A stretch of DNA of 64,000 nt from Polytrichum commune. Taxonomy: Eukaryota > Streptophyta > Polytrichopsida > Polytrichales > Polytrichaceae. The notes under the pieces were generated by a model. That model had not been told where the DNA came from. It did no database searches and saw only the letters and a list, made by a program, of their open reading frames with translations. The stretch spans positions 35,652,001 through 35,716,000 of the forward strand of contig OX485806.1 of NCBI GenBank assembly GCA_950295325.1, given 5' to 3'. How positions within the stretch are numbered: position 1 is the first letter of the stretch; each line of letters begins with the position of its first letter. Shown piece after piece: positions 2,334-40,809 of this stretch. The position numbers were made by a program, and so were the translations under genes.

Positions 2334-2341
2334 TGACCATT

Positions 2342-3823
2342 CACGGGGAGGTCACTTAGTGCATTTTAAAAACGACGTGCGGCATAATATAGGGAGGATT
2401 AAAATCATTTGACATAAAAATTATAAAAGAATTCCAAATAATGAAGGGTCCATTAAAAGTACATAAGCCCATTACAAGTAAAATAGATAAGTATAAAATA
2501 TGGGCCATTCCCTTTTAGTAAAAATAATATAGGGGCTGAAAATAAGGATCTTAGGATGTATGTTTAGTAGAATCAATTTCATACACATGCCTCACGAGGG
2601 ATGGATGAAAAATTACTCATCATTCACCCAAAAATGGATGAAATTGGAAGCCTCAGTACAGAGAACCGTAGAAGTTGATGGGCATTCCATTTACAAGTCA
2701 ACGTTTGTTTCGCAACTCAATGGTAATGTTTTTCTATCCAAAGATAGATTAGCAAGAATTAAACATAGTATTCATTTCAACAACCATGATAATTGTCTCC
2801 AAGCAAGATCTTCATGTGGATCAAGTTTGTTATCTATAGGATCTGATTGTGGGGTGCATTTTGTCCAACGGAGCACAACAATGCTATTGTCAACTGTAAA
2901 ATCCGCTGCCAAACGAAAAAAGGGGACGTTCAATGACTGATGTTAAAGCTGGAAATGCTACTAACATATTGAACGGAGTAGATTCTAGTTCATGGTGGGT
3001 GGGTAGGGTGCAGGCTATGCGGCGGCGCAATGGGAAACAATTTGGAGTACTTAGGCAAGCGGTTGACCTCCTTGCTTGAACGGAGGAATCAGGGAGGAGA
3101 AATCCTAATAATCCCCACATCGAAGTAATGTTGCAATATTATAGAAAATATCCAGGCCGTAACAAATTTAAGTATGATCACACGGATAACAAATGGATTG
3201 ATGTAGATTGCATTATATCTACGGTAACCATGAGCTACAATTCTACAAATGAGGTGTATACTCTTGATAGGAATGATTCAGAGCAACTGTCCAAGTTTGT
3301 GACAGAACAACCTATATAAGATTCATGACCAAGCTTAAAGTGTTTCACACTATATGGTTTTGGTCTTCACTAGCATGTAAAGTGATTTTGAATAAAGGAT
3401 TTTTATGGAGCGGGTGTTGTGTTTGTGAATACACACACAATCTTGTTGTGTTTGTAAACACACACTCAATCATGTTGTGTTCCATCCTAAGTCTTCTTTT
3501 TGTATTTTCACTTTAAGTTTTTGTACTTGGTTTTTGCAATGGTACATTATTTTTTTATTTTTTTATTGCCATGCTTTTCCCATCACTTTTGCATTGCATA
3601 CATTCTTAAATCCAGTTTTTTTAATTAAAAGGAATATAGACTACAAAAAATTTCAATGACATGGGCATTATAAATAATGGTAGGGTACAAAAAATAGGCC
3701 ATTTTAGAATATTATGTAATTATAGGGAACTTTTAATTCGTGCCTTGGAGGTAAATAGCCCCTAAACAAATACCCCTCCACCGCACGTGGTACACAAAAA
3801 TCCTACTAAGTGACCTCCCCGTG
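2342..3823 (+). mobile_element. TIR DNA transposon copy A, 8-bp TSD, ACGTGC subterminal family
   Basis: Both ends carry the same 19-bp inverted repeat, CACGGGGAGGTCACTTAGT (2342-2360 and, reversed, 3805-3823). Flanking it is a perfect 8-bp target duplication, TGACCATT (2334-2341 and 3824-3831). An ACGTGC motif lies in inverted orientation about 35 bp inside each end. Both ends are closely related to the 561-bp copy at 40249-40809, so that copy is a deletion derivative of this kind of element. The 8-bp duplication fits hAT, P or some Mutator-like elements, but the termini do not match a superfamily I can name. Internal ORF remnants are listed separately. Confidence 0.9.
2560..3319 (+). pseudogene. 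Broken ORF inside TIR element A, unrecognised protein
   Basis: I do not recognise this protein. A 126-codon frame (2560-2940) contains FVSQLNGNVFLSKDRLARIK and then GSDCGVHFVQRS. Frame changes and an in-frame stop near 3078 interrupt it. The reading continues in another frame with SSWWVGRVQAMRRRNGKQFG (about 2983-3042), and a 63-codon frame (3128-3319) contains NKFKYDHTDNKWIDVDCIIS. The three pieces lie in order on one strand, and codon-like composition returns after each break, so they look like one decayed gene. No DDE or RNase-H-like triad is visible, so it may be an accessory or captured protein rather than the transposase. Confidence 0.5.
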
Positions 3824-4201
3824 TGACCATTCGAAGATAAGTTGCTCTTCATGTTAATTTTTTACATTTTCTTCCTTCATTCTTGGACTTAGGAAGTAGA
3901 ATTGGGCATTTGGATTCACACTCTCAATACATTTCCTTTGAAGCCTTACTCAAAACCAAAAGTAGAAGAATGAGAACATAATGAGTGGTTGAAGACTCGG
4001 AAGTACAATGACTTCAAGAAATGAGTCTATGAGGGTATTTGATTTAGAAAAGTAACAATGTAGAGAGTATGAAGAATCAAAGCAATAAATTTTGAACATG
4101 AAAGTTTGAGAGCATGAAGTAACTGACAACCTCAAGAAAATTGAAAAGAAATTGCCACTAGATTAAAAAAATACATAGTGCCAAAGTTGACTATGTACAT
4201 A

Positions 4202-5363
4202 GACTCATTTTTTGAGGTGTTATATACAGAGTGGTCAAAATCTTGTCCACTTTCCACAAGCAGCCAAAACAACTCAAATTCGATCTGGCATGCTAGCATA
4301 CAATCTCTCACATTGCTCTGTAGTGATCGTCTTATAAGTCTCCTCCACACGCTCCCATAATTGCAAAAGACCTACAGGAGGAGTTGGATAGGAATTCAAA
4401 CGATGTGATTTAGGTCTGGGGATTGAGCTAGCCACTCTAAAATAGTGAATGGCTGCTCTAAGAACTATTTTTGAACAATCTTTGCTTTATGTATAGGAGC
4501 ATTATCATGCTGGAAAATGACGTTATTGAGGTTCAAGTATCCTAATCTCTCTAAACTCAAGTACAAATCTCCATGCAAGATTGAAATATAGTCCTTCGCA
4601 TTTAAACGCCCATCCACCTTTTGTAAATCACCTATACCTCTTGCTGTCATACAACTCCATAGCATCAAAGACCCTCCACCATGCTTCATTGTTTGCTTCA
4701 CCGCACGATTAGGCAAGCTTTTTTGGGTCATTGACCCAGCACCAAGTCCTCCCATCTGAATTGAAACGATTTATCTTCGTTTCATCACTTAATACAACTC
4801 TCTTCCAATCCTCTACTGTCCACTCTTTATGAATTCTTGCAAATCGTAGCCTCTCTCGTACATTTTTCTGTGACAAACAAGGCTTAGGAATCTTCTCACA
4901 AGCACTCAATCCAACATCTCTCAAAGCGGACCGCAAAGTGTTATCACACAAACCCACTTCTCTACCCTCTCTCAACACTTTTGTTGCATGTATTGCCGTT
5001 TCCAACCCTCCAACCGTGACCAAACGCACTGCACGTCGTCTCTCTGAAGTGGTAAGAATCTTTGGAACACCTCGTTTTGGCAATTCTAAGTTACGACAAT
5101 GTTTCTTCCTCACTCTATTCACCGTCCTCTGTGAGAAACCCAAAGACTTTGCAACCACTCTTGTACTCTCACCTTTCATCAAAAGAGCAACAATATCTCT
5201 CACTTTGTCTCCTGAAATTGGCTTCATCATGCCAATTCTAATTCCTATTCTCCACAAGAAGGAAGAGAAGAGAAATCACAAAAAAATTCATCAAAAAACA
5301 CAAATTTCTCTATGTTCTACACTCATCTGAAGTTGCTCCAGAAGCCACCTCAAAAAATGAGTC
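4202..5363 (-). mobile_element. Tc1/mariner-superfamily (Tc1-like) transposon
   Basis: Perfect terminal inverted repeats, GACTCATTTTTTGAGGTG (4202-4219 and, reversed, 5346-5363), are each flanked by a TA dinucleotide (4200-4201 and 5364-5365), the hallmark target of Tc1/mariner elements. The 1162-bp interior encodes one minus-strand transposase with several breaks. A sequence close to the right end plus its flank, AAATGAGTCTATGAGGGTA, also occurs just outside the element near 4020, hinting at an older related end in the flank. Confidence 0.92.
4230..5257 (-). pseudogene. Tc1-like transposase, inactivated
   Basis: The amino-terminal frame (5257 to about 4709, 182 codons) has a helix-turn-helix DNA-binding region (KGESTRVVAKSLGFSQRTVN), a second basic domain and the first catalytic aspartate in VVLSDETKINRF. 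After a one-base frameshift near 4715 the next frame gives KHGGGSLMLWSCMT and the second catalytic aspartate in VIFQHDNAP. A stop codon follows near 4464, then LAQSPDLNHI in the same frame. The position 35 residues after the second aspartate, where Tc1 enzymes carry glutamate (DD34E), falls on a valine codon beside another disruption. Further stops follow. The family cuts and pastes DNA at TA sites; this copy cannot make a working enzyme. Confidence 0.9.
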
Positions 5364-5365
5364 TA

Positions 5366-6035
5366 TAAGGGTACATGCACATTTGTGATCGTAACTCACA
5401 ATGTAGATATTATTTAGGCCAAGCGCCATGTGGTATGTGTTAAGAGTGCATTAGGCTCAATAAAAAAAAAATTAGGCTTCAGCCGCCTTAAGGTTTCCTA
5501 GCTGGCCCTCATTAATGCTCCCTGACAGGGGCATTGACTCATTTGTTGAGGTCGTTGTAGTTGTGTTGTTGAGAGAGCTTGCCAGCACAAGATGCCACCT
5601 CACATTCTAATTTTAGATTGGGGCATTTGGACTAAGTAAGTGGAGTGGAGCTTAATTGAACAACTCAACATTACTAACATAACACCATTCACTCATATTC
5701 TAATCCCAATACAACCACTCCAAATGAGCTTCACACATTGTAGAACTACAATGTTCATTGAATTGTCATCGTTGGATCCTTCTTTGAACCCAAAAATTCC
5801 TCTACTCAAGCACTTCATGAGTAACACTTAGCCCACACCTAATCATAAAGAAAATATTTCTTTAAATTCCAAAATATTGTGAGGAATATCCCATAACACA
5901 TGGAGCATAAAAGACCATGCTCAGTCATGTCATGGAATGAGGTACCTTAAAAACTTTAACTTAACTTAGTATAAGTTGAGGTAGATAGCATGTGCCTTAA
6001 GGTTGGGTAGGATGCTAATGCATATAAGTGTGCAT
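5366..6035. other. Intergenic, no gene seen
   Basis: AT-rich DNA without supportable coding sequence. A TIR-like string, GACTCATTTGTTGAGGTC at about 5537-5554, resembles the end of the neighbouring Tc1-like element and may be a remnant of a related copy. Confidence 0.4.
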
Positions 6036-6038
6036 CTC

Positions 6039-6143
6039 CACTAGTAGAAATGTGGTAGTTTCACGATATGACTCGGGCTTGTGTCATGATGGTCACTTTG
6101 TGTCGAATTGTTGTGTCATGAAACTACCACATTTCTAGTAGTG
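6039..6143. mobile_element. CACTA-type MITE (105 bp)
   Basis: The ends are CACTAGTAGAAATGTGGTAG and, reversed, CACTACTAGAAATGTGGTAG, about 25 bp of near-perfect inverted repeat beginning with CACTA. A 3-bp target duplication, CTC, lies at 6036-6038 and 6144-6146. TIR type and TSD length both match CACTA (En/Spm) elements. There is no coding capacity, so this is a miniature non-autonomous copy that would fold into a hairpin. Confidence 0.85.
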
Positions 6144-6146
6144 CTC

Positions 6147-7789
6147 TCATTTATTTAGCAAAACGCTTTGAAATAATAGTTATGTCAGAGGCTAGTTTTT
6201 AAAGGCAACTTAACATCAAAATTAGCTTCAAAGACCCTATAATAGTCTAGCATGACACATTTGAATGATTCCACCACAAATATGTAGGATGTAATTGTCT
6301 TAACATGGATGGATGAGATGTATGCACATATGCAACAATTTTGGCTCGTCCCTTAGACAAACGAGTCTAATGCATTTATTTATCTTGATTGGACATCTAC
6401 ATTAGAGTGATATGTACCAAGTGCTTATCTAAGAATGGAAACTGAACAAACACGCGTTTAAAAGGGATCACACTATATGCTCAAATTTTTAACCACTCTA
6501 AGCTCAATAATGGACATAACTGAGAAGGGATGGGTGGGGGGTAAATACATCCTGATAAATGATAGAGAATCTTCACTTTGATGAGTAATCATGTAATTAA
6601 AGGTGTACAATTTCAATCCTCTCTAGCTTCATTTTAGACTATTATGACTGTGTACAAATGCCACTGGCATGAAAGGGGAATCTCTGTGGCACATACGACG
6701 ACTATCCTCTGTAACACAATTGGGATCCACTAAGAATGGGTTCATTAGTGTCCCAATCTAAGAAATTTGGGGTTCTGAAACACCCTTCTTGGGCCTCACT
6801 TGTGCACTGAAGATTAGTTTCTCAAACGAGGAGGTTAATCTATTAAGTTGGAGCCATCAAGATTTGTGAAGACACGATGCCATATTATCGCCCCTTCATT
6901 TTTCCATGCTTTGAACCTGGACCCTAGTGGGAAGTCTTTGAATCCAAAATTATGCTCTCGACCAAGAGGATGGCTTGAGTTTTGGAGTTTCTTTGGTCTT
7001 TCACCCTAATGTTAACCCATCCTAATATGACAGTAAGAACATACCGCCTAGATCAAGACCTTCACGCATAGTCTTTTTCTTTTTCTCTTCTTTTTTGGGA
7101 CAATTTAAAATTTCATTCTATTGTCAAATTCCTCTTGGGAGCACCCGGTGAAACCAAAACAACCCAAGTTGGGTAAACAACCTAAACACATATAACTAAG
7201 ACTATGTTAGGCACTCTTGTGTTCTAGTGCGTGGTTCTAGTATTATCTTGACTAGGATTTAAGTATATTTGGATTTATGCATGAATTTTGGACAAATCCA
7301 ATTGCCAATATGACGTACCTTAAATCGCAAAACTAGACAATATATGGTGGTTGGCACATATGGAATACAAACATATAAAGTTGTAGTTGTTATGTTGTTT
7401 TTGTTGTTTTTGTTCAAATTGTTTGTCCCCACAAATGCGCACAACCCTCATTAATTCTAGATAAGTGGTTTGTTCAAATATACTTAAAGGTCAGTTTCTT
7501 GATGCTAGAGGATCTCGTTCCCTCTCAAATTTGATCAAGTTTCCTAAGCATGTCGTCGTAGTTGGTTGCTTTGTCAACTTCATTGCAAGCAATGTCCCAT
7601 GCAATTCTAGCTTATTCAAAGATACCTTGCCAAATCAATTGTTGCAGTTAATTATTATCCCATTTGGTAGTGTTGAAGGTAAGGTCATTCTTTTAAATCT
7701 AAATGGTCCTTGACGAGATGCCTTTGCAAGAGCCACCAAACTCTAGAGAGCTTACTAAGTGTGCATAGTTCCCCCCCCCCCCCAAAAGA
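6147..7789. other. Intergenic, contains a dispersed repeat and a C13 run
   Basis: No gene is supportable. About 6340-6680 is recognisably related (roughly 70 percent by eye) to about 14380-14620: both read CAATAATG(G/A)ACA and share further blocks, so this is an old dispersed repeat. A 13-base C homopolymer lies at 7771-7783. Confidence 0.45.
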
Positions 7790-8640
7790 TCCCATGTTGC
7801 TAGTCAAGGGGTCTCCAAGGTCCCTTTTGCCCTAGTTTTGCTTTCATGACATTGACTACTCCAACGGTGAAACCCATGCCCTACGGGCAATTCTACAATC
7901 CCAAAATCTATGAACGATGGTTTTCAGAAAATCAGCACAACACATGGGACATTTGTCATTAACGACCACAATGAATCTTGCTCTCCAAGAGTTGACCGCA
8001 ACTGCTTTGTTCTAGATTGACCAAATGAAGGTTCCTTCTTTCTTGCTTTGAGTTCTATTCCACACATTTCCATGTTTCAAGTTGAGTTTTGGTGGTAGGA
8101 TGCCATGCCATTCAGTGAAAATTGATTGAGGTGGTGGATTAGAAGTTTGTAGCAGGTTTCTGCCAATGGCAAATGTGTAACTTAAAAAGCCATCTCCCGA
8201 CTTCCATTTGAGGCATGTGGGATCCATACATAGCATGTCTCTTTGTCCAATATAAAGGTCAAAGGTAGGTTTTTTCTTTTTTTTCTTTTTCTTTCTCCTT
8301 TCATGATGGTGCATACTCTAATGAGCCTAAACTATTTTGCTTGGATGGTAATCTACCCGTCCTTACATGTGTTCATATTGATCATACGACTGTTAAGCAT
8401 GGTAACATTTAAGTCTGAGAGGAGGTAAGGGAGCCCATGAGCATTCAACAAGGATAGGTCTAAAAAGTCTACAACTTTGGAAGATGACCACCGAATGGCC
8501 ATCTTGCCTTTCGCTTTCAAAGCATCCTACCTAGTTCCCAATAGGTGCTGATAGGGGTTGTGAGGCCAAATCCACCACCCTTTAGCGTCCTAGTCCGGGT
8601 GATGACTTTGAGAATCACATTTATCTATTACAATATTGAA
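7790..8640 (-). pseudogene. LINE remnant: 3' zf-RVT-like part of ORF2
   Basis: Read on the minus strand, frames give SGDGFLSYTFAIGRNLLQ, then FTEWHGILPPKLNLKHGNVW, TFIWSI, and on toward the end a cysteine/histidine region (KCPMCCADFL, then IVHRFWDCRIARRAW). This order matches the region after the reverse transcriptase in plant LINE ORF2 proteins (zf-RVT-like). Several frameshifts and stops break it. The upstream part of the same protein probably lies at 10190-11480, separated by an insertion. Confidence 0.65.
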
Positions 8641-10190
8641 CCATGTGCAAGGTAATTTTCATGTTCAAATGAATACACATTGTCTCACTCATTGTGCTTT
8701 ATTAATGTTGGCCTCTTGGCTTGTGCTAGAGTTGGCTTTCTCAAGAGTCCAACCCGCGGCTTTAGCCGCACATGCCCTTACGGACATTCCCCTCACTCTT
8801 TTGATCTTCACCCCATTTCTCTTGCCATTGCAAGAGTCCTCCACATTCTTCATTAATAATGCAAGTGAGTTATTTTGACCAATCGGTGCAAGTGTTGAAA
8901 AACACTTTTATCAATGGTTAAACACACTCATACAAACCCACACGTGGTACCAACTAGCCCAATGAATCTAACTATTTAGCCACCCCTAAAATGGCCTAAT
9001 GTGATTTAGTTTTTTTTTTATGTGCTAACACTTACTAATTGAACTAGCCTTGCTAACCCCTAGATGGTCTAAAATGATTTGTTGCTAAGCCTCGCGGCTG
9101 CAGTCTAGCCATGGTCTCGGTGCAGTCGGCCACGGTCTCGGTGTGGTCTAACCCCCCAGCAGCCCAGTTGCAGTCTGCCACAGTCTCGGTGTGGTCTAAC
9201 CCACCAGCAGCCCAGCTGCAGTCGGCCACGGTCTCGGTGTGGTCTTACCCACCAGCAGCCCAGCTGCAGTCGGCCACGGTCTCGGTGTGGTCTAACCCAC
9301 CAGCAGCCCAGCTGCAGTCGGCCACGGTCTCGGTGTGGTCTAACCCTCCAGCAGCCCAGCTGCAGTCTGCCACGGTATCGGTGTGGTCTTACCCACCAGC
9401 AGCCCAGCTGCAGTCGGCCACGGTCTCGGTGTGGTCTAACCCACCAGCAGCCAGCTGTAGTCTAAGTCCATGGAGTTACAATACCCGAATGGGTAACCCA
9501 GCTACTAGTTGCACCTTAATACACACCCTCTCATTCCCTAATCACATGTTTTCTAAGTCTTTCTCCTCCTTTCCTTTTTCTTGCTCCTAAGTAATGAACT
9601 AATCTAACACGCTAATTTCACTAACTACTAACTAATCAACACGTGCAATCTTAAACTCTAAGAGCTCCCCCACTTGGGAGGCATTGAGAGAGAGAGCTTA
9701 ACTAACTCCTTCACTAAAAACTAATAACCCACCCACGTGGCTCAAGCTCTTAAGAGCTTGCTCCCTTGAGAGCACTTGATGGAGAGAGAGGAAAATGAGA
9801 GAAAAAACACCTTAAGTAGCAAAGAGGGAGAGAGGGAGAGAGGGAGAGAGAGGTGAGGATAGGGTGAGAGGATTAGCACCCCCAATCACAATCCTTTAAC
9901 CTTCTCCTCCAAAGTAGGGACTAATCCCCATCCACCAAGCTTCCTTCTTCCTAAACTACCAAGGTGGATCCAAAAGTGGGCATTTAACCCGCGGAGCTCA
10001 CCTTGCTTCACCTTACCCCCTACTCACATCATCAAGGCATACTCCTATTGAAATCAAACCTTGAAATAACCACACAACACGTTCGAATGCCTAAACTTAA
10101 ATCCACACCACACTTCACTCTTTTTATATTTTGTGAATAATCATAACACATCAAAGTCAAACAAAAATTGGTTTCGAAGAGTTAATCACC
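8640..10190. other. Probable insertion splitting a LINE remnant
   Basis: The LINE reading stops at about 8640 and resumes, further upstream in the protein, at about 10190. The 1.55 kb between shows no LINE similarity. It holds the 48-bp minisatellite (9099-9457) and a purine-rich GAGAGAGGG stretch near 9780-9860. I found no TIR, LTR or target duplication, so the insertion itself is not classified. Confidence 0.35.
9099..9457 (+). repeat. 48-bp minisatellite, 7 units, open in frame
   Basis: Seven units of 48 bp start at 9123, 9171, 9219, 9267, 9315, 9363 and 9411, with a partial unit upstream from 9099. Because 48 is divisible by 3, an ORF from the ATG at 9111 to 9590 (159 codons) runs through the array, giving a 16-residue repeat, QSATVSVWSNPPAAQL. 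By my count unit differences are 7 synonymous (for example TCG/TCT, ACG/ACA, GTC/GTA, CCA/CCC/CCT) and 2 nonsynonymous (AAC to TAC, units 3 and 6). A one-base deletion in the last unit shifts the frame. No signal peptide or known domain is seen, so expression as protein is uncertain. Confidence 0.85.
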
Positions 10191-11480
10191 ACATGTGGGC
10201 ACCATTTTGGGCTCACAGGGGTTGTGTTGGACAAGCTCTTTTCCATTTGTTGGGAATGGAGTTAGGCATAGTTTCAATTGCTCTAATTACCCTTTGATTT
10301 AATTTGGAATTTTGGGCGATTTCCGGTTCTTGATAGAGTTGGTTGTTTTCAAAACCCCAAATGTTCCAAATATAAATGAGACCATTTTTATCAACTTGAG
10401 TGGCTATGTTTCCATAGAACCCATATCCAATCCCTTGAATTTTAGGTGGCCATCATATTCAAGTATTGGGGACTTGATCCCTATCTCTAGGAGGCATCAT
10501 AATCACATATGTGAGCATGTTTTTTCAAGCTTTCCCAATTCTCTCCCATATATTGGACCTTTGTGAATGTAAGTGATGTTGGAGGAACATCCGACCTATT
10601 TTTGTACTCCATTTATTCTTCCTATATGGGTGTGCATTTTCAAGTCTAATATGGATAAGTAAGTGAAGATTTGATTTGCCCCCCTCAAAGGCCTTGATTA
10701 CCCATTTGACCAACAAGACCCTAGTAATTGCCTATGGGTTGACCTGGGTCTTCGTGCTTAAGTTTAGCACAACACTCATTCCATGTTGCCCTTGTTGGTA
10801 ACATGTCCTAATTATCCACCCCGGATGCAAGTCCCTAGGTAGTCCTTTGATGTTTTTAATTGCTTTCCATGTTCCTGCCCAATTTGTAACAAAGTGCCAG
10901 AGAGTTGATGCTAGAACTTGGTTTACAATTAACCTTCTACCTGCAAATGAAAGTTGCCTCGACCCCAAGTAAATAATCGTTCTTTAAATTTTGTTGAGAA
11001 GAAAGTTGTCAACGTCTTGAATGTCAAAAGATAGACCAAATGTCGTTCATAGTAATTTGGAGAGGTCACCATCTTGTGCCCATTTCCACTGAAAGTGTCC
11101 AATCAAGTTGGCTTAGCCATAAAAGGACTTTGCTAGTAAGCAATAGACTCACTCCAATTGATGCTTGAGACCTGAGTCCAATAGACATATGTCAAGGCAT
11201 GGGGATGAGCTAAGAATATTTAGAAGATTAACCAAAATTTTCCACCATCTTTTCTTCTCCTTCAATGGTGAAGGAGGTGTCATCTGCATACTGAGCTATG
11301 ATCTATTAGTAGGTTTTTATCAGGCATAATAATCAGTTTGACCTCGTGGTTGGTTGTTGCTTCCTTAATCATGACATGCTTAAGGACTTCACTAATGATC
11401 AAGAAATGGTATATATCCATGGTGCTAAAGAAATCCTTGCCTTACCCCGTGTGACCCTCACACATAGCCCCCTGTCTACG
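10190..11480 (-). pseudogene. LINE remnant: reverse transcriptase and downstream region
   Basis: On the minus strand from about 11430 the reading contains FLIISEVLKHVMIKEATTNH, then TSFTIEGEEKMVENF following the position of the RT catalytic YADD box (here degenerate). Next come RQLSFAGRRLIVNQVLASTL (about 10957-10900) and WVIKAFEGGKSNLHLLIHIR (about 10702-10645). These blocks and their order are those of plant non-LTR retrotransposon ORF2 between RT and zf-RVT. Many stops and frameshifts show it is dead. Confidence 0.75.
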
Positions 11481-13634: not shown

Positions 13635-13960
13635 ACTTATGTCAATCCAATGTCAGAGGTAGGTCACCTCAATGACCCACTTGTTGCCAATAGATTAGGC
13701 GACTACATTCAAGGAATGAGACCTCAAATTGACGTCCTATGCTTACAAGAACACAAATTGCAAGGTATGAACCTAGAAACTAGCCCATTTAGAGTTTGGT
13801 CTAGAGCTAGCATATGGGCTAGGGATGCATCCCCATGTTACTCTGCAACAAATCCCATGGGTGGAGCAAGCAAAGGTGGTAATTGCTCTCCTTGTTCACC
13901 CTAATTGGTGTAGTCAAGTGATAGACTTTGGACATTGTGCAAATAATGGAGCAATATAGA
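13635..13960 (+). pseudogene. LINE remnant: AP-endonuclease start of ORF2
   Basis: The plus-strand frame at 13650 reads LGDYIQGMRPQIDVLCLQEH KL. The block ending LCLQEHKL is the characteristic catalytic-glutamate motif of LINE AP-like endonucleases, preceded by the usual start resembling NVRGLNDP (here GHLNDPLVANRL). After a frameshift near 13875 the reading continues as ALLVHPNW then runs into stops. Only the first 100 or so codons remain. It is on the opposite strand to the LINE at 7.8-11.5 kb, so it is a separate copy. Confidence 0.75.
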
Positions 13961-15000
13961 TTTGAATTTGTTAACCATCTTGTATTATTTTCGCATTTCA
14001 TACATCTTAGGAGAACTGGACTAGTTGGAAAAAACCCAACCATTTAAGATCCATTTACCTTACTTACCTTAAATTGTGAAGGAAACTAGTGCAACTTACA
14101 GTTCTTGCATGATGAGAATATTTTTTGGCCTTAGGGTGGTTTGCAAAAGCGAGGTCGTGGCAGGAGGCTTAACTTGGTGAGACCCAAATTTTGTGATATT
14201 ATGTAATAAATGTGTGTCATGGAATCCTTGTTCAAGTGCCTCCCTCATTCAACCATGTTCCCTTTTACAATATAAGTTATGGTAGATGGGTTTTAAGTGG
14301 CTCATTTTCTTTATCAGACCCCTATATTTGATTGGAATGTGATTCATTGAGGATCAAAGAGCAAACAACATAAAGACACATGTTTAGAAGAGATTGGACT
14401 ACGTCTTCAAATATGAATGACTATTCTACATTCAATAATGAACACAATTGGGAGGACCTATGTATTCAGTTAAAAAATCAACAAACATGCACTTCCGATA
14501 ACCATAATTAAATCAAGGGGGGTTTAATTTTCAATCCGATTTTGGCAGATGTTTCATCATAGATTCTCTAATGCAACACGAGTTTTGTTGTGTGAACCTG
14601 ATTGGTAGAAGTTGGAGAACATGAAAAATGAACCAACTAACACCCACATACCTTAAAGTTAAGTTAGTCAGACCATTTTTATTTTTACTCTACCAGCACA
14701 CCTGACCGACTGACCACTCGGCAACCGCAGACTCACCTACTTCTTTATTAAATAATGGCCCACTATTTACAGCCTACCCGGTACATGTTTTTAACCTTTG
14801 TAAATCAATCTATGGACCCATACCGGTTTGGTTCCTTAATAGGGCTAATAGTGAAAACTGACCCCTCATGAGTTGGTTGTTTTTTCATCCCATTTTACGT
14901 TCCATCCAATAGACTAGTTTGGGGGTCTTTGACCTCGATTTAGGAGTTAATTTACTTGGAATGTTTTCGTAGGTATGTGAACATTCCCTCGTGAATACCA

Positions 15001-21826: not shown

Positions 21827-21832
21827 GCACAT

Positions 21833-23470: not shown

Positions 23471-23496
23471 ATCCCCATTTAAATGCATTGCACTAA

Positions 23497-23661
<165 letters not shown>

Positions 23662-30854: not shown

Positions 30855-32542
30855 TCATAATGGCGCTGTCAAGAAACCATGGTCTTCTAAGTAAGCCAAA
30901 ACTTTAGCTGCCATTTCTTGTGGCGAAGCATACTTCCCATCCACGTCCCTCAATACAATTTCAGCCTCCTGGGGGCCCTCGTAAGGATCATCTATGCCTG
31001 TGAACCCCTTGATTTTCCCAGCACGGGCAAGTTTATACAAGCCTTTTGGATCTCGTTGCTCACAAACTTCCAAAGAAACATCCAGGAACACTTCAATAAA
31101 GTCTCCAGGAACCATAAGGCCCCGGCAGCCGTCTCGATCCTTCCGATACGGAGATATGAAGCTGGCAATACATATGATCCCCGTATCTGCATACAGTTTT
31201 GCAACTTCTCCAATCCTACGAATGTTCTCTGCACGGTCCTCTGCACTGAATCCCAGGTTATTGTTTAAGCCATGTCGTACATTATCTCCATCCAACACAT
31301 AACTGAGTTTTCCTCTATCCAAGAGGGCATGGTCCAGCGTGCACGCTAGAGTTGATTTTCCAGATCCACTGAGACCTGTAATCCAGATCACACAACCCCT
31401 TTGGTTTAATAATCGTTCTCGTTCCTCCCTCTTCACCATGCACCCCTGCCACAGGATGTTTGTTGATTTTCCAACAGTTGTCACTGATGGGTAAATTTTA
31501 CCTGGGAATCACAAACACACCTCATTAAGCACAAACACACTTGCGATGCCGAAGATTCAATACTCACCAACAGCATGATGCACAATTTTATAAGATACAG
31601 TTGGTTCATTAAGGGAGTGACTGCCAACTGAATGCTGTGAAATAGGGCAAGTGAATGGAGACAGAACAGGGGAGGAGACTCTAAAAGAGACCTAATCATA
31701 AAATTGGGCAAGTACCAAATGCAAGAAGGATATTCCTTGACATTTCATGGTGCAGGTTAGGCCCCCAAGTTTAGTTGGTCTACACACTAAACCCCGGAAC
31801 AGGTATACGAAAAGACACAAAGACACAATATAATAGAAAACCAATCTACATTCTGTTCCCGACTACAGAGTTGAGGAATCAACACAGAACGCCTCGACAT
31901 GGTGCAGGTTAGATCCCAAGTTCATTTAGTCTACTTACTAAACCCCCGAATGGATTTATGAAAAGACAATAAGACACAATAGAACAGAAAACCAATCTAC
32001 ATTCTGTTCCTGACTACAGAGTTGAGGAGTCAAAACACAATACCTGGAAGCTCCTCAGTATTTGCTGGTTTTGTGGCGTCCCCATTTACACACTTATAGG
32101 TCTCATCTCGCACGAACTCATGTTTGACTTCATCCCTCGCTGATCCTGGGCTTCTTGCAGAGGCAACACAAATGGAATAAGACTCCCTATACCTGGGCCC
32201 TTTGAACCCTACTCTGACAGAGACTCCACCACCATAGATTCCACTTCCATAACCCTTCCCCATTTTAACGGATGAATGTGAAATATTTGCAGACTGACTT
32301 TGCCAATGAAATCTGCACACTACTGTACTCGGTCCCCCCATTGTGCTATTCTTATTTTGAGAAGCTGCGGCCTTTATGCTTTGGCAACTCCCTGCTACAC
32401 ACTTCCACTCGATTGCCCACAAGGCCTGCATGTTCTTTCCAATTTGGGCGCCTGAATAAAATTCCACATGGATTGGTATCACTCCTGGAAACCCCTGCAG
32501 GAGTTCAACATACTTGCTGAATGTACGAATTGCACAAAACAT
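30855..32542 (-). CDS. APK: Adenylyl-sulfate (APS) kinase, plastid-type
   Basis: Makes PAPS from APS and ATP, the sulfate donor for sulfotransferases. Exons: 32542-32044 and 31501-30855 (381 aa); the intron is GT-AG with phase 1. The core shows the P-loop GLSGSGKST (about residues 209-217), LDGDNVRHGLN (236-246), FISPYRKDRD (281-290) and GLYKLARAGKIKGF (320-333) ahead of DDPYE. Two cysteines 33 residues apart, in LWQGC and STLAC, match the redox-regulated Cys86/Cys119 pair of Arabidopsis APK1. The long Ser/Lys-rich N-terminal part fits a plastid transit peptide. An in-frame TAA lies just upstream of the chosen ATG. The entire kinase core is in one exon, fewer introns than usual in seed-plant APK genes. 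The intron contains a tandem duplication. Confidence 0.95.
31746..32049. repeat. 152-bp tandem duplication covering the APS kinase 5' splice site
   Basis: Copy 1 is 31746-31897 and copy 2 is 31898-32049; both start CATGGTGCAGGTTAG and share CCAATCTACATTCTGTTCC. Copy 2 contains the used donor (minus strand CCAG|GTATTG, intron starting 32043). The corresponding place in copy 1 reads GAGGCGTTCTG, with GT changed to GC, so it is a silenced duplicate of the splice site inside the intron. Confidence 0.85.
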
Positions 32543-33902
32543 GGCGATTTAAGAGTGGTGAAGACAGAGCAGGAAGTGTTAGGCAAATAATGGGATGATG
32601 TCAGTGACAAGTAAGAGGATAGCAGTGACCACGTGCCTGTGTAAGACTGTTTTCCTAAGTCTGTAAAAGTCACCAATAATGACAAGCATTACCTTTCAGA
32701 CACATGTACAATGACAATATACAACAAGGATAAGTAAAACAGAATACTCATGTCTCCTACTACCAGAATGTAGCAGTATGTGAATTATCCATGTGCAATA
32801 CTCTGAATCGAGCAATGACAAAATTACTTATGTAGGCTCACAAAAACAGAAACGGATATCTCTAAATTATTTCCCTTCAGTCATGTGGTACATTATAAAG
32901 GACCTTGAGTTACCCAGTATTACTGAAAACTAGCACTAAAGGTGATAGTAACAACGACTTGTGCAGAGAAGTTACAAGTTGCAGTGCTCAATAAGCATAA
33001 ACATAACTTTTTGATGATATGATGCACTCACACTACAAATGAATGTACCCCAAGATGTGTGGAGAGGAAGTCTGATTTTGGGATACACTTGCTCAGAAGT
33101 AAATGGTTCTAATCAAGTCATAATGTCCAAGATATGATATGTACCAGAATGTAAGCGCCATTATATATTTGTTGGAGCAAATTTACTTGCAAAATTGTCT
33201 CTGGTGCTGTGTGCAGGATGAAAAGCAATGTGGTCTGAGCTTTTCGCATCAATAATGCAACATTTCTTCTGCAAGTTTCATCTTGTGCTGTCACCACATG
33301 TAGGCCATTACACGCAACTCAACATGCAATGTCGTAGGCAATTCCTTTGTTTGCACCCACCACTACTGCTACAGTCTCAGTTGAGCACCGCCTGATGTAG
33401 CAATTACACCAGTACCATCCCCTGTCCAGATAAACTTTTGCAACAGAAGAACTTTATCTGCATACTCTGCAATTTACACATGCGCTGTTTATTATCTTCC
33501 ATCAATGGCCTACCTGAAAACCAGTGGACTTTGTGCAAACAAATGTTATTTGGAAAGGATGACAACCCACAACACTCTCCTCGCAGTAATCGGTCTACAG
33601 TTTGAAATACCACCTCACACCTTCAGATCACAGAGCCTTTAAAATTCCAGAAAATCACTCAAAATACAAGCATACAAGCTAGCCACCACGTAACCCTAAC
33701 CCTCATTGAAGAATAAAACCAAGAAGAAGGACCCCCCTGTCATTAACATACAATATTTCTAGTTCAAGATGTACTCCACTCACGTGCATGGACTTCATCA
33801 TCTTGATGCTAGCCAAAACCATTCCACACAGTGATTCTTAGATACTCATCCTGCTGATGGGTACTATGATGCAAATACTACTACGAAACTTAAATGGTCA
33901 TA

Positions 33903-34003
33903 GAACGCACTTCCCATTTGTCATACAACCAACCGATTATCCATCTCTCTGTAAAGGCTTCTGAGATTGAAATAACCGCCCTTGTCAAATGGGAAGTGTG
34001 TTC
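33903..34003. other. Candidate hairpin, 18-bp arms
   Basis: GAACGCACTTCCCATTTG (33903-33920) and CAAATGGGAAGTGTGTTC (33986-34003) are complementary except at one position, with a 65-base loop. Size and arm length are within range for a plant small-RNA precursor, but pairing does not extend well beyond the 18 bp. It sits in the APS kinase 5' intron. Confidence 0.35.
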
Positions 34004-34790
34004 TACAGGAATATCTCGAACATGTTGTTATAAAATCAAAGAAGGTAGCTACATCACTTTTCCCGGAAGCGAAAGAAAAGACACTGCAATTTGCAACCAC
34101 TTATCTAACCTTGGCATATCCATCTCAGCTCTTCCCAACCGAACTTGATCATATAAAGGCGGTTTCCAGCATTAACCCTAGCTACTTAAGATACAACAAA
34201 CGGTCTTCTACTCAAAAATAACAAGCTCATCAGTAACCCATCATCACAATCACATGGTATACATAAAAAATGAACATCACGATGAATTAGCCTGAGATGT
34301 GAAGTGCAGACTGAAGAGCAGAAAGAGAAATTTGGCCGAGCACAGAAAGCAGAGGCAGTGCTGCATCATCATCATAATCATATTCATATTCATGGGAAGT
34401 GCATTCTATGGGATGATCTCGAGCATGTTGTAATCAAAGAAGCTAGCTTCATCACGTTTTCCAGAACGGAAAGAAACGACATTGCAATTTGCAACTAATA
34501 ACCTTGACACATCCATCTCAGCTCTTTCCAAACGAACTTGACTATAAAAAGGCGGTTTCCATCTTTAACCCTAGCTACTAAATATACAACAAGCACACTC
34601 TTCTTCTCACACCTCACAAGTTAAGCTCCCTCATCAGTAGTAACTCATCATCATCACTTTCACATGGTGAACACCAAGATGAACTAGCCCGAGCTGTGAA
34701 GTGTAGATTGAGGAGCAGAAAGAGATTTTTGGACAAACACAGAAAACTGAAGCAGTGCTGCATCATCATCATCATATTCATATACACATT
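33991..34790. repeat. 403-bp tandem duplication with promoter-like plus-strand modules
   Basis: Copy 1 (33991-34393) and copy 2 (34394-about 34790) align over their length, starting GGGAAGTG(T/C)(G/A)TTCTA. In each, the plus strand reads a TATA box (TATAAAGG at 34152, TATAAAAAGG at 34543), then GCGGTTTCCA, then TTAACCCTAGCTACT (a telo-box-like element) and a pyrimidine-rich leader in copy 2. That layout resembles a plant core promoter pointing away from, and antisense to, the APS kinase. No long ORF follows. Confidence 0.7.
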
Positions 34791-34851
34791 TCATTCATCA
34801 TATTGTGTGAAGCTCAAAGTGCAATACTACATTATTTATTTATTTACTTAC

Positions 34852-35121
34852 CTGGCTGGAAAGATTTGGCGATGCAATGATGATGATGACTTGTGCAAGA
34901 AATGGCGAGAATCAGAGTGTGGAGAGATCTAGAGTTTGAATCGTCTAGGGTTTCATCTCATTCAGGGTTTCAGGGTTTCAATACGTCCTAGTCCAGCCAC
35001 TCATCATCCGAGTCATGCTTCTGACATCAAACCTCATAATGGACATGGCCCTCCTTTTCTGACGTGGCATGACATGTCATCATGCTATTCACAACTCGTG
35101 TCTAATTTAGGCGTTCAGTGA
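34852..35121 (-). promoter_or_regulatory. Probable 5' UTR exon and promoter of the APS kinase gene
   Basis: Read on the minus strand there are telo-box-like elements (AAACCCTGAAACCCTGA, then AAACCCTAG at about 34946-34954) followed by a short pyrimidine-rich stretch with no long ORF, ending in the donor at 34852/34851. Upstream, CCACGTCAG (about 35061-35069) has the ACGT core bound by bZIP factors. No TATA box is obvious on this strand. A short hairpin, TTGCAATTA/TAATTGCAA, lies near 35184-35206. Transcription start is not determinable here. Confidence 0.5.
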
Positions 35122-35543
35122 GGTGCGGCGTAACTAGTAACTTAACTTCCAAGGTGCTCCGAAGTTACTTCCGAGCACATCCTTTGCAATTAGTCACTTA
35201 ATTGCAAACTCAAGTGACCTCCTTCCAATGAATCTACCTCACCTGATAAGCTTGTGTAATTTATACCTTCCTAAAGAAACACCGCATAGGTATATATGAC
35301 AACCCCATTTTGTAAGGTTAAAAAACATAACTTTACACTTCTAAATTTTTAAATTGAAAAAAAAAACCCGATTTCTTATTGTTTTCATGGATGAAATCTC
35401 CACATCTAGATTATATCTCCAACTATTGGATGAAGAAGTCCATGGGTGGATGAAAACATGCAAAATCATTCATATGCGGCTTCGTCACTCCGAACATTGT
35501 CGCCATTTCGGCTATCTCAAAAATGTGAGGGGGAAAAAGGCAC
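35122..35543. other. Intergenic, no gene seen
   Basis: Short stretch upstream of the APS kinase promoter without supportable coding sequence. It includes the TTGCAATTA inverted repeat mentioned for the promoter. Confidence 0.4.
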
Positions 35544-35771
35544 TGCACTAAATATTGTATTTAATGTCACTTACAATTTGGAATTATGCAATACTATAAC
35601 CAATTATTGTGTATCTCATCTTGTTGCCAACAAAGTCAAATTGGTTGTTTGGACATCATAGAATAATAACATCTTTGCTTCATTTACATTAATAGAAATA
35701 GAAATTTTTAAAAAGATTTAGCATCGTGTAACTCCAAATGGTAAGTGACACTAAATTCAATATGTAGTGTA
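35544..35771. mobile_element. TA-target MITE, complete copy (about 228 bp)
   Basis: The left end GCACTAAATATTGTATTTAA and right end reversed, ACACTACATATTGAATTTAG, continue into paired CACTTAC(A/C)ATTTGGA(A/G)TTA. The interior AAATTGGTTGTTTGGACATC is the reverse complement of the CCAAACAACCAATTTGAC block in other copies, so this one is inserted in the opposite orientation. Confidence 0.8.
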
Positions 35772-36490
35772 GTATATGGGGAGTTGTTGTAAGCTCCACA
35801 ATGATCCATAGCCATAGGCCACTGAAGAAGAACTATTGTTACTTTCCTTCCCCGGGTGGAGAAGCATGAGAAAGGCCAAGTCACAGTGTTGAACATGCAC
35901 CTAAGTAGTGCATAATTAATTACATGGCCAATTTGAGAGTGAATGTGAGTTTGACATCCATCTCAACAAGCCTACCAGTTGTTGGTCCATAAATGGCTGT
36001 CAAAATGGTGTGAAACGGGTTCCCAAACCCAGCAGGAGCGGAGCATGCAGTGGCTTGGTGAAGTGAGGAGTAGGGAAGCAGGTGCCACGCATGCACCTTC
36101 TTAATGGGGTTGGCATAAATAAGTTAAGGATGTCGAATGGAGGCCGGCATGCATGCACCGGTATTTGCGGCCTGCATTGACCACATTCAACTGCCTCATG
36201 CTTCCGTTTTTGTCTTTGGGGGAGACGGCATCAAACAAGCTTGTCGTTCTGTGTTCATTGCATGCCCTCTTCCCCATGATGCTTCCCTTCTATTTTTTAT
36301 TTCCAAATTTGCACATACACACACGCACGCACGCACACACATGTATGTGTGGGTAAGGTAGATGGGTCTTCCATTGCGACTACTTTTCCTTGACTAACTA
36401 GCCCAACTTCTCCTAGGATATGAGGTCCTACCTATTTTTCTCATGAATTATGGAGCTCGTATGAACGTTTCTTGGTTGAAGTCTAACACC
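35772..36490. other. Intergenic, no gene seen
   Basis: No supportable gene. A CA/CG-CA repeat lies at about 36309-36346. Short frames overlapping it (36137-36361) are low-complexity artefacts. Confidence 0.4.
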
Positions 36491-36501
36491 TATGCATTTA
36501 T

Positions 36502-36911
36502 CACGGGGGGTGCACTTCATTGTCAAGTTGAACACCACGTGCAATAAAACAAAATCTACTTTTTACATAAAGCATCACCAAAATGGTTCAAAAGTTTATG
36601 AATTTTTTTTCATGAGTAGATATACATAGTATCTATTACATAGTAAAAATTGGTAACCAAATTTGATGATTTGTTTTTTTTATAAAACATACCGTTTCTA
36701 ACTAGAATGACGCAACATTGAACTAAACAAATTACTACAAAAAATGAAGATGACTAAAAATTTCAAAAAAATATACAAAAGATATTATCAATGGTTATGT
36801 GTATGTAGAAAAAATATCATCATTTTAAAAATTATCTATGGCATGTAATATAGGGTAGCAAACTTTTATCGCACGTGGTTATGAAATGTAAGGGGGTGTG
36901 ATCCCCCCGTG
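36502..36911. mobile_element. TIR element copy C, 8-bp TSD, ACGTGC family (410 bp)
   Basis: Ends CACGGGGGGTGCAC and, reversed, CACGGGGGGATCACAC. Perfect 8-bp target duplication GCATTTAT at 36494-36501 and 36912-36919. Subterminal CACCACGTGC and, on the right, GCACGTGGT mirror each other as in copies A, B and D. The interior is AT-rich and non-coding, so it is non-autonomous. A decayed relative sits at 45757-46160. Confidence 0.88.
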
Positions 36912-36919
36912 GCATTTAT

Positions 36920-37680
36920 TCATCCAAAATTGGGGGTTCTAACACCACCACATCAACGCTCCTTGAACATTATAAATTTTCAAAAGTGGGACGAAACTCC
37001 CTACCAAAATGTGAGTTTTTGAGAGACTTTTCAAGAATAGCTCTAATGAACTTTACTTTTATGTTCAAGATTGGATCTGAACTCAACAACTGGTTTCTCA
37101 AACTAAGAGTAGGTTGACATAACGATCCAAGACTTACCAAATAAAATAAATAATACTTTGAAATCGAGCAATCTTATTGCATGGGAGCAATCTTTTTGGA
37201 TTTAAGGAGTTCATTCTATCATTTGTTGGACTCAATCCTAAGGGACTATTTTTTTAAACCATCCATTTGAAGTGTACTAAATACTCTAAATATTTAATTT
37301 AGTACAAAAGTTTAATTAATATGCCAAGCTAATTAGAAAGCTCTTTGTCATGCAGTACCAAGTGCCATGTGATATTCTTTTTAGTTGCCATGCAACAAAG
37401 GCATTTCATGATAAAATAATGACTACCTATTAGGGTAATAATAAGGTAAGTATCATTTGTAATGGAGGAGTGGTGTAGAACTCCTTTAACTATTGGAGTT
37501 GTAAACAATTGGAGTTGTCAACGGGACATTCCAACATAAATTGTGTTGCAATTTTAACTAACTTATGTTAGGAAGAAAAAAGAAAAAAAAAGGCAGCAAA
37601 TTTTGCCGTTTTTTGGGATTGGGATAGTTGACCATCAACCATTTTCGATCAACAAAACATGATACCCGCACGACAATGAT
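36920..37680. other. Intergenic, no gene seen
   Basis: AT-rich DNA without motifs or supportable coding sequence. Confidence 0.4.
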
Positions 37681-37686
37681 ACACTA

Positions 37687-38136
37687 CATTGATTATCTCA
37701 TTTAGTGAGGGTGAGTTAATAGTACATATGGGAAACTAGTGAAGGTGGGAAATTAGCGAAGGTGATACTAAAATTCTATATGCTATGAAATTGGTGCCAC
37801 AAGAAGATCTAGGGTTTCGGGAGCCCACAATGTCAAAGTGTTGGAAACTCTCAATGCAAGCTCTCTTGAGTTTCTTAGTGATGGGAGATACCTCATGATT
37901 GGGTGACACCGACTGAGAAGAAGAAGTAACCTCTTCTAGCTCACCTAAAAGCAATCGTGCACTCTACAAACACCTTAGAGCAAGCATTGTTTTCTTGAAA
38001 TGTATGGTAAATGAGCGTGTATTCATGAATTTAGTATGACTTAGTAAAAAAATCAGCGCTCATTAACTATTGTGCGATTTGGCAAAATAGTGCATGTTTT
38101 GGGATTAGTACCACACGCGCTAAATGAGATTTTCAC
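37687..38136. mobile_element. Short TIR element, copy 2 of a pair
   Basis: Left end CATTGATTATCTCATTTAGTG pairs imperfectly with the reversed right end AGTGAAAATCTCATTTAG. Outer blocks match the element at 15001-15411. The centre (about 37800-37950) is unrelated to copy 1 and has a minus-strand open frame containing LEEVTSSSQSVSPNHEVSP, which might be a captured fragment. I do not recognise that peptide. Confidence 0.5.
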
Positions 38137-38466
38137 TAACTTACTTACCCTATGCGCCTCAAATATTCTCAAATATCACACTCTACAAGCTCTCTTGATA
38201 AATGCTCAGAAGTACAAATTCCTCCATAATATTTTCTAACATAAAAACTTGCCCACGAAGTTCAAGTTCAACCACTTTTCTTTGAACAACATGAATGGAT
38301 TTTAACTTTGAAATAAAATAAAAATAAAAATAAAATCTTTGTTCTTCCAAAATGTTAGATGGATAGATAGATATAAATGCCAACTCCACATGGAGAAAGC
38401 ACGAATGAAGAGTCTCTTTGCCCACAGGTTACTTACCCCTTGTGGACTCTATCCAAGGTAACCATG

Positions 38467-39872
38467 CTCGGGGAGGTGACTATCGGAAATTTAGAAACCA
38501 CATGAGATTTAAAAAAATAAAAAAATCAATTTAATTTGTTGAGAGTAAAATTATAAATTCATTAGATCTACCATAGCATTGGAAATATGTCCCCTACATG
38601 ATTATATGTAAAATAGGGTGGTGAATAATTCCTTCATTTTAGTAATCAGTACAAAAAAAAATAGGGTTATAGATATTCGATCCCCTTAAAAGTGTGTAGT
38701 AGGATCAATACAATAATTATGGCTTTTGTATTTAGCTTTCTTGTATTCGAATGTAATTTTTTTTTTGGAGTAGGTAGTTGTGCAAAATTCTATGTCTTGT
38801 CACAACTGATTGTAATTCTTGTTTTGTTCTATCCATGTTTACAACTTGTCTATGTTAGCTTGTATATTTTATTATCTTTATGTTTATTGATGACCCTTTA
38901 ACTAGTACTCAAATGCTATTGGTTGTGTTTTGAATGGTACTTTGAACGATTTAGGATTGGTATAACTAATTGAAACCAATTGAATGACAAGATGGATGGT
39001 ATGTAATGTTTGTTGCTCACATAGTCGATTTTGCAATGCTATAGTATTTAGTCCACTATTTGGTACTTGTACGATTTATAATAAAAATATGATGCCAAAA
39101 ATTAGCCTCTCTAAATAATTACAAATAAACATAGGGTGCTAAAAAATACGTCCAAGTAGCTTTATATCCCGGGTACGCAACTCCCGTATTATATGGTCCT
39201 GATTATAATCACTTATAATGCGTTTTAGTCCAATATTGAGTGATACAATTTGTTTTAATGTAGGAAACCCTTGTAGCCCTTCTAACAAGGAATCCAAAAA
39301 TGTAATTAAATATAGGAAATGAATATATTTTGAAGCATATAATTGCATTAAAAACCTAATTATATGATTTTTTTAATACAGGTACCATAGGTCAAACTAC
39401 CCAACTTTTTGGACTTTTTAATAAAATTTCAACATTGTGAATGAATTATAATTTTAATGGGAGGCAACTATTCGTGGCTTATAATTTTAATGGGAGGCTT
39501 AATAAATATGCAACCCAACTTTTTTTTCATCTCATTTATTTAATTTGGTCTTCACCCAACTTTTTTTTCATCTCATTTTATTTAATTTGGTCTTTACCCA
39601 ACTTTTTTTCCATCTCATTTTATTTAATTTGGTCTTCACCCAACTTTTTGATCATTTTAATTTGATATAATTTGATATAATTTTTACAAAAGCCGTCCTC
39701 TAAGCCGTTTTAAGTACGATGCCCCCTGCGTATAATATGGGAGTTGCGTACCCGGGCTTTATATCTACAAATAGGGTAGGAAAAAATATTGAGAAGTGCA
39801 TAAATATCCCCCCATTAAATACCCCATTATTGCACGTGGTTACAAAACATAAGGGGGTGTGATCGCCCCAAG
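38467..39872. mobile_element. TIR element copy D, 8-bp TSD, carrying a nested element
   Basis: Left end CTCGGGGAGGTGAC and reversed right end CTTGGGGCGATCAC, with a perfect 8-bp duplication TAACCATG at 38459-38466 and 39873-39880. The right subterminal GCACGTGGTTACAAAACATA resembles copy C (GCACGTGGTTATGAAATGTA). Without the nested insertion and its duplication the element is about 809 bp. Near 38680-38705 it has AGTAGGATCAATAC, similar to the start of the ORF remnant in copy A (AGTAGAATCAATTT). A hydrophobic 69-codon frame at 38692 has no recognisable motif. Confidence 0.85.
39168..39756. mobile_element. Nested TIR element F, 8-bp TSD (589 bp)
   Basis: The terminal repeats CCCGGGTACGCAACTCCCGT and, reversed, CCCGGGTACGCAACTCCCAT extend to 26 bp with one mismatch. 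The target duplication CTTTATAT is perfect (39160-39167 and 39757-39764). The element lies wholly inside element D, so it inserted later. Its interior has three or four copies of CCCAACTTTTT...CATTTTATTTAATTTGGTCTT (about 39510-39650). There is no coding capacity. Confidence 0.92.
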
Positions 39873-39880
39873 TAACCATG

Positions 39881-40240
39881 TCAAAATGTTCCGTAGATCG
39901 TATATGAGGACTTATTATGTGTTGAGGGGCATGTGAGAATATTCTTTGTCACCATTCATGAAGCAAAGATGCAGCACATGGGATTCACATGGCATCCATA
40001 ATAACCAAATGCATCCATCACGTCAACATTGACAAATCACTTACCAAAAATAAATAATTGTAAAAAAATTTCCATCCAGTATTGTACTCTCTCCCTAATC
40101 ACTTCAAGTTGACATGATCAGAATTTGGTTGAATGTAAACATTATGAAGTTGAATCATATAAAAAGTAATATGTGATGAAATTTTATTTTATTTTAATTT
40201 TAATTTTAAATTATGATCAACTTTGTATAAAGGAAGAAAC
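39881..40240. other. Intergenic, no gene seen
   Basis: AT-rich spacer between two TIR elements, with no supportable gene. Confidence 0.4.
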
Positions 40241-40248
40241 ATCACGTG

Positions 40249-40809
40249 CACGGGTAGGTCACTTAGTGCATTTTAAAAACGACGTGCGGCATAATATAGA
40301 GAGGATTAAAATCATTTGAAATAAAAATTATAAAGGAATTCCAAATAATGAAGGGGCCATTAAATGTAGACAATCCCATTATAAGTAAGTTAGTGGACAT
40401 AAAATGTGGGCCATTATTTTTTTGTAAAATTAATATAGGGGCTGAAGATAAGGATCCTAGAAGGTATGTTTAGTATGTTTGCTATGGTCTCCTATGTGTT
40501 TTCTTCATAACTTTGTTTGCAATGATATTACTGTTTGGCACCCTTCTTTGTTTCCATGGTTTCCCTTAACACTCGTCAATGCGTTAGGAAGTAGATTAGC
40601 TTTTATTGCTTAAAAGAAATATAGAGTACAAAAAATTGCAGTGACTTGGACAATATAAGTAATGAAAGGGTGCAAACAAATGGGCCATTTTTGAAATTTA
40701 AGTAATTATAGGGAGGCTTTAATTCAACCCTTGAAGGTAAATAGCCCCAAAACAAAAAACCCCTAGCCGCACGTGGTGCACAAAAATGCCTTAGAGTGAC
40801 CTACCCGTG
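40249..40809. mobile_element. TIR element copy B, 8-bp TSD (561-bp deletion derivative of A)
   Basis: Ends CACGGGTAGGTCACT and its exact reverse complement. Perfect 8-bp duplication ATCACGTG at 40241-40248 and 40810-40817. The first 220 and last 190 bases match copy A closely (for example AAAAACGACGTGCGGC near the left and CCGCACGTGGTGCAC near the right), but the ORF-containing middle is missing. It must have been mobilised by an enzyme from elsewhere. Confidence 0.92.

Follow-up and report, generated by a model that had tools for sequence, protein, structure and literature searches.

A review of land plants lists six superfamilies of DNA transposons with terminal inverted repeats (TIRs), namely Tc1-Mariner, hAT, Sola, MuDR, PIF-Harbinger and CACTA, P not being among those it names (PMC9033089), and the P transposase is described as having catalytic residues D230, D303, D339 (of a DxxH motif) and E531, at spacings of 73, 36 and 192 residues (PMC8230255). 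A survey of 207 plant genomes used the target site duplication (TSD) and the TIR to assign miniature inverted-repeat transposable elements (MITEs) to five superfamilies plus one special group (PMC12550479). Under such rules, a group that makes 8-bp TSDs but has a transposase of its own would probably be classed as hAT. A 64,000-nucleotide stretch of Polytrichum commune DNA (C4:35652001-35716000; hereafter the window) contains four TIR elements, A to D, each flanked by a perfect 8-bp TSD. Analysis of the window and of the genome (408 Mb in 64 contigs; C-numbers denote contigs and L-numbers the genomic loci that were fetched) makes it likely that A, B, C and D are non-autonomous, MITE-like copies of one cut-and-paste DNA transposon group, moved by the mechanism proposed below.

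Element A (1,482 bp; 2342-3823, forward strand) lies between an 8-bp TSD at 2334-2341 (TGACCATT) and its match at 3824-3831, and comparison of its ends defines perfect 19-bp TIRs at 2342-2360 (forward) and 3805-3823 (reverse), with a left subterminal ACGTGC at 2375-2380 (forward), position 34 from the end. Element B (561 bp; 40249-40809, forward; TSD ATCACGTG) has perfect 15-bp TIRs; element C (410 bp; 36502-36911, forward; TSD GCATTTAT) has a 9-bp TIR, CACGGGGGG at either end; and the TIR of element D (38467-39872, forward; TSD TAACCATG) is degenerate, CTCGGGG at one end and CTTGGGG at the other. A scan of the window for C[AT][CT]GGG and CCC[AG][AT]G placed 200-2000 bp apart, with at least seven of eight TSD bases agreeing, returned exactly these four elements, all with eight of eight, as against a mean of 0.055 and a maximum of 1 in 200 first-order Markov random windows; the four sets of coordinates and the perfect TSDs of the original prediction, made from the window sequence, were exact. 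An inverted ACGTGC-type motif had been predicted for the whole group, and a CACGTGC-type motif does begin 34-36 nucleotides inside the end in each of the eight arms of the four elements (on the left, ACGACGTGC for A and B and a mutated CCACATGAG for D), but a scan of the first 70 bp of the full-length relatives L015 and L018 found neither CACGTG nor ACGTGC, and these carry AGGTGMGAACAA- or ACGTGAGACC-like sequence at that place. The right end of D resembles that of C (86% over 43 bp), and the decayed relative predicted near 45757-46160 is C-like (45758-46160, forward; 74% identity to C over 298 bp, 45758-46042, the right part being read by eye). D, predicted as a single element, keeps its coordinates and TSD, although its 1,406 bp include a nested, different TIR element outside the group (39169-39755; 587-589 bp, CCGGGTACGCAACTCCC ends, its own 8-10-bp flanking duplication). 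A 79-bp near-repeat also occurs within D (39513-39589 and 39596-39674).

A and B are derived by internal deletion from large elements. Positions 1-312 of A correspond to 452-763 of L034 at 97.8% and positions 323-1482 to 4688-5847 of L013 at 97.1%, the nearest full-length relative (hereafter the A parent) being an 8,496-bp element at C5:40490851-40499346 with its own TSD, AAAGGTGC. The left 231 bp of B are 97.4% identical to L033 and its right 333 bp 92.2% identical to L014, and the B parent is a 9,703-bp element at C3:23844933-23854635 with TSD CATAGACT and an intact frame of 1,491 amino acids. Two further complete elements belong to separate families: L015 (6,351 bp, TSD AAAGAAAC) and L018 (5,802 bp, TSD TCTAGATT, matching ends CTCGGGGGGGTCACTCCTCATAAAAA); the four delimited full-length elements span 5.8-9.7 kb. 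The hunt for the longest autonomous copy that the original prediction had proposed has yielded full-length elements and their transposase. The long 5' parts of both parents hold no frame above 138 amino acids, and a parent of C or D was not found, a C-like stretch upstream of the L017 gene having no left end. What had been noticed in A as an unrecognised protein remnant proves to be the C-terminal domain of the transposase (L014 residues 1272-1491, 84-85% identical), carried in two broken frames on the forward strand: 2533-2940, the first part of the C-terminal region, in which 2656-2925 is 84% identical to L014 residues 1272-1361, and 2900-3319, with one TGA and a possibly BAH-like domain, in which 2921-3316 is 85% identical to residues 1360-1491.

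Since scoring and listing were confined to the best candidates, the copy numbers given for the genome are minima. For B, with 1,910 candidates, 41 matches were listed, and 40 of these run the length of the element to within a base at 98-100% identity. TSDs of 20 sampled copies were exact over 8 bp in 17 and had one mismatch in three, with a slight bias towards matches from an end finder that gave preference to CACG/CGTG ends and, close to where a duplication was expected, to the best one. These 20 and the window copy lie on average 0.54% from their consensus; B is young, the listed copies being the best-scoring and therefore the youngest-looking. The inner 821 bp of A gave 40 matches among those listed of 356 candidates, 95-100% identical, and all six A copies at L005-L010 have exact TSDs. 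Counts of the terminal pattern CACGGGNAGGTCACTNA were 294 on one strand and 313 on the other, as against 0 and 1 for its control. The near-identical copies suggest present or very recent activity. A direct empty site is provided by L006, in which a 271-bp sister element sits inside an A copy with GTAATGGG on either side; GTAATGGG is single at the same place in four of five other A copies (L005, L007, L009 and L010), the exact probe having no match in L008. Thirty-six TSDs (a list that omits the three B copies with one mismatch) are of mixed sequence, with no base above 36% at any position.

The transposase has about 1,490 amino acids and, in those intact copies that were read, is encoded by one uninterrupted frame; eight members were aligned over 1,554 columns. 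N-terminal Cys/His clusters are followed by conserved blocks (L014 numbering) AEDET (D696), ASDGDSRRR (D815, D817), DQDxxHxxKKxxNP (D862, H865) and DSCExFFS (E1057); D696, D817, D862, H865 and E1057 are invariant in all 12 aligned relatives, the most distant of which is 33% identical to L026. The resulting order is D-D-DxxH-E, at spacings of 119, 47 and 195 residues (D696-D815-D862-E1057). This order places the transposase among known DDE enzymes by signature only, so that it is probably a deep relative rather than mechanistically new, and the elements are probably DDE transposons of the P/hAT/MuDR clan. The profile hidden Markov model search suggested by the original prediction matched no Pfam transposase model in the eight members or in seven pieces of L060-L063 (E up to 10), nor in scans of L010 and L018 and of a set of four proteins; the few Pfam matches listed are to unrelated families or, in the L063 N-terminus, to zf-C17orf113 below its cut-off, whereas the same kind of scan detects hAT and Tc1 domains in window proteins. 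NCBIfam gave nothing for L014 and L015, the two proteins tried, and sequence searches of the PDB nothing beyond one chance match. Five pairs were compared for nonsynonymous (dN) and synonymous (dS) substitution in the catalytic region: two are saturated, two nearly identical (dN/dS 0.41 and 0.61) and one, the A parent against the B parent, is informative (dN 0.073, dS 1.277, ratio 0.06, 563 codons). The catalytic region is under purifying selection in this sole measurable pair, a sign that function has long been selected for.

When the C-terminal frame of the A copy L010 was used as query, 147 of 1,637 candidates were scored and 153 matches resulted, some within frames of about 1,500 codons. 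With the catalytic region of L026 as query (76 of 293 candidates scored), the 80 matches listed include nine that are stop-free and lie within frames of 1,490 codons or more; seven such genes, read from ATG, encode 1,490-1,509 amino acids. Relatives extend to 33% identity to L026 (L060, L061), and none were found in viral and prokaryote contigs. A search for an autonomous copy by terminal pattern (100 of 607 places listed) led to L011 and L012, both A copies with insertions. The former carries, at 348-7053, a large MULE-like element with a 9-bp duplication (TGGGAAAAG) and a SWIM-like finger match below cut-off (E 0.026); the latter (C1:46628100-46630600) holds an added stretch of about 0.7 kb in which there are frames without an assigned origin. 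L024, L025 and L026 share an apparent intron (or insert) of about 0.1 kb near L015 residue 1135, where L023 has a longer gap. Two transposase copies with identical scores and open frames lie about 22 kb apart (C5:50061133 and C5:50082851), perhaps a tandem or segmental duplication.

The C-terminal domain, which has no Pfam match, may be a BAH-like chromatin reader. A model built from 14 sequences has a predicted local distance difference test score (pLDDT) of 52 overall, with block means of 63-78 over residues 121-230 except for 48 at 151-160. The best Foldseek row for this model is DNMT1 (E 0.03), with the ORC1b BAH-PHD sixth and the Ash1L PHD-BAH twentieth, and VIA-align ranks EBS, AIPP3, Rsc2 and SHL first to fourth (Z 6.7-7.2 over 84-86 residues, values below 8 being common according to the tool's note), EBS and SHL presumably being aligned over their BAH domain. 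Of the listed matches, 33 extend over the full 258 residues, and 12 of these keep the C-terminal frame open; among five A copies the dN/dS of this frame is 0.33-1.08 in the nine of ten pairs that are measurable, so that there is no clear selection on it.

In the proposed mechanism, the N-terminal Cys/His clusters, probably zinc fingers, would bind the subterminal motif about 34 bp inside each end; the bound transposase would pair both element ends; and the central DDE-type nuclease of the hAT/P/MuDR clan (D, D, DxxH, E) would catalyse cutting at the CACGGGG termini and joining of the ends to target DNA with an 8-bp stagger, giving the 8-bp duplication. A and B, having kept the ends and lost the catalytic part, would be mobilised in trans, and the same enzyme may serve C and D. 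The C-terminal domain might read chromatin. We would also entertain, with some scepticism, a more far-reaching reading: an undescribed DDE superfamily in a land plant might have a transposase with its own BAH reader for choosing target chromatin or escaping silencing, while the A family spreads a separate reader-only frame that could act in trans on full-length elements, as do truncated proteins for Drosophila P. If real, the group would add a superfamily-level lineage with near-identical copies to land plants, and chromatin-guided DNA transposition would become testable through a transposase that possibly carries a histone-mark reader. Among the papers listed in literature searches, which did not extend to preprints, none was seen whose title or abstract describes this group.

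Other features of the window include a Tc1-like transposase fragment with HTH_Tnp_Tc3_2 (4709-5275, reverse strand), a tandem coding-like repeat of SATVSVWSNPPAAQLQ units open in several frames (9078-9590), a 681-codon hAT-type frame (60406-62451, forward) with a zf-C17orf113 finger and a hAT dimerisation domain, and a chloroplast-type APS kinase exon. Elsewhere in the genome, plant-type TTTAGGG repeats run from the first base of C1 (among the places listed, all on C1); these repeats and the APS kinase exon mark the host as a plant.

That the group is a new superfamily-level lineage, nearest to P in layout and apart from the models tested (with Repbase and Novosib outside the comparison), seems to us evenly balanced. 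Several observations weigh against the reading developed here, as do the profile comparisons with P given below. Mobility is read here from sequences; for C and D, the link to the group consists solely of their end sequences, the position of the motif and the length of the TSD; and the frame of the A parent is broken by an apparent frameshift. D815 is replaced by N in L026, which leaves both D815 and D817 as candidates for the second catalytic residue. The model of the catalytic domain is poor (pLDDT 39.4), so that an RNase-H fold is at most putative, and it gives no usable structure for the stretch in which a GTP-binding insertion domain like that of P would lie. In this poor model a strand ends at D696; more strands follow, then a helix and another strand ahead of D815, and beyond these DxxH sits in a helix, from which a helical stretch leads to the helix that contains E1057. 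This order agrees with that described for P and THAP9 and is weak evidence (PMC8230255). For the C-terminal model, Foldseek gave no match at E <= 0.001 and placed unrelated norovirus proteases at ranks 7-10, and VIA-align Z stayed below 8 throughout, its BAH rows being tied with the chromodomain of MSL3 (6.7).

Among known superfamilies, annotation pipelines would be led by the 8-bp TSD to hAT, with which the group shares that length, short TIRs and many small non-autonomous copies. The motif that follows the second D is CxxH in hAT but DxxH in all 12 aligned relatives, and hAT ends are YARNG, unlike those found here. The E-x-FFS near the last acidic residue recalls hAT, and the L063 N-terminus matches zf-C17orf113, a finger also present in the window hAT, at E 0.0016 and 18.7 bits as against a cut-off of 29.5, whereas the dimerisation domain PF05699, which the same scan detects in the window hAT, is not matched, and hhalign scores against Hermes are noise, as they are for the window hAT; we regard a divergent hAT group as improbable. 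Some MULEs (Mutator-like elements) make 8-bp TSDs, but we give a MULE group with short duplications hardly any credence. Model PF10551 had 142 places listed in the genome (150 of 271 candidates were scored), and inspection by eye put none of these inside the elements that were fetched; the duplication of the MULE-like element inserted in L011 is 9 bp long. What remains in common with MuDR/MULE is the C/DxxH clan (PMC9587614) and the TIR structure, set against no MULE model match and a TSD of 8 rather than 9 bp. Dada shares with the group the C/DxxH clan, large elements (4,666-10,979 bp) and a long transposase, that of Dada-U6_DR having Cys at residue 1359, but its TSDs are 6-7 bp and its targets small-RNA genes (PMC3706591), as against 8 bp and no common target in the 36 TSDs here. 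Kolobok requires a TTAA TSD, in contrast to these 36 8-bp TSDs of mixed sequence. Merlin, whose TSDs are 8-9 bp, was set aside because no Pfam transposase model matched. Novosib makes 8-bp TSDs and occurs in green algae; it shares both the TSD and the green-lineage occurrence with this group. Repbase treats Novosib as a superfamily (PMC4455052, PMC9587614), and membership of a known superfamily, above all Novosib, or of an unpublished Repbase family is unlikely, though less so than a hAT origin.

A divergent P branch, in which the THAP domain was swapped for other zinc fingers and a C-terminal domain was gained, is the most plausible of these alternatives, yet we still consider it doubtful. 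P elements also make 8-bp TSDs, whose length is thus shared, and plants are said to lack THAP domains (PMC7776569). By eye, AEDETKV at the first D (D1) resembles AFDEMKV of P, and QDPLHVGKKLRN of the distant lineage L060 resembles P's SDTPHLIKLVRN. Of all positions in P, the block profiles of D1 and E rank the catalytic D230 and E531 highest, whereas in Hermes the same blocks have their best positions at 41 and 121 and miss the catalytic residues D180 and E572. The blocks of DxxH and the second D (D2) nevertheless miss the catalytic residues of P, and the total ordered block score against P (27.0, p = 0.26) is not significant, reversed P (26.6), Hermes (29.9) and the window hAT (27.4) scoring alike, in a test made after the likeness to P had been noticed and so not blind. 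By hhalign, with one P sequence and a shallow profile, the score against P was 21.0 and, in a second run, 17.1 as against 18.1 +/- 2.7 for 60 shuffled P sequences, that is, at noise level. No P or THAP Pfam model was matched by any member scanned; a genome search with the P model PF21787 was also without match, but its control matched nowhere either, so that nothing follows from it. The original prediction, which held that these TIR transposons fit no superfamily clearly and named a transposase inside hAT, MULE or P as the finding that would overturn it, is supported in that there was no match to a Pfam transposase model, to NCBIfam for the two proteins tried or, by eye, to the MULE profile in the fetched elements, and the P and Hermes comparisons were noise, with Repbase outside the comparison.

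A cut-and-paste group of its own within the clan, the reading that we prefer, is compared most closely with the P superfamily (Drosophila P, THAP9, Galileo). Its elements share with P the 8-bp TSD, subterminal sites and the D-D-DxxH-E order, in which DxxH and E are 195 residues apart as against 192 (D2 and DxxH are 47 apart here and 36 in P), and differ in the D1-D2 distance (119 residues as against 73), the extra C-terminal domain, the CACGGGG ends and the lack of a P or THAP model match. The P transposase has about 750 amino acids, as against about 1,490 here. In its anatomy, namely the 8-bp stagger, short TIRs, subterminal sites and non-autonomous progeny, the group would work like P or hAT.

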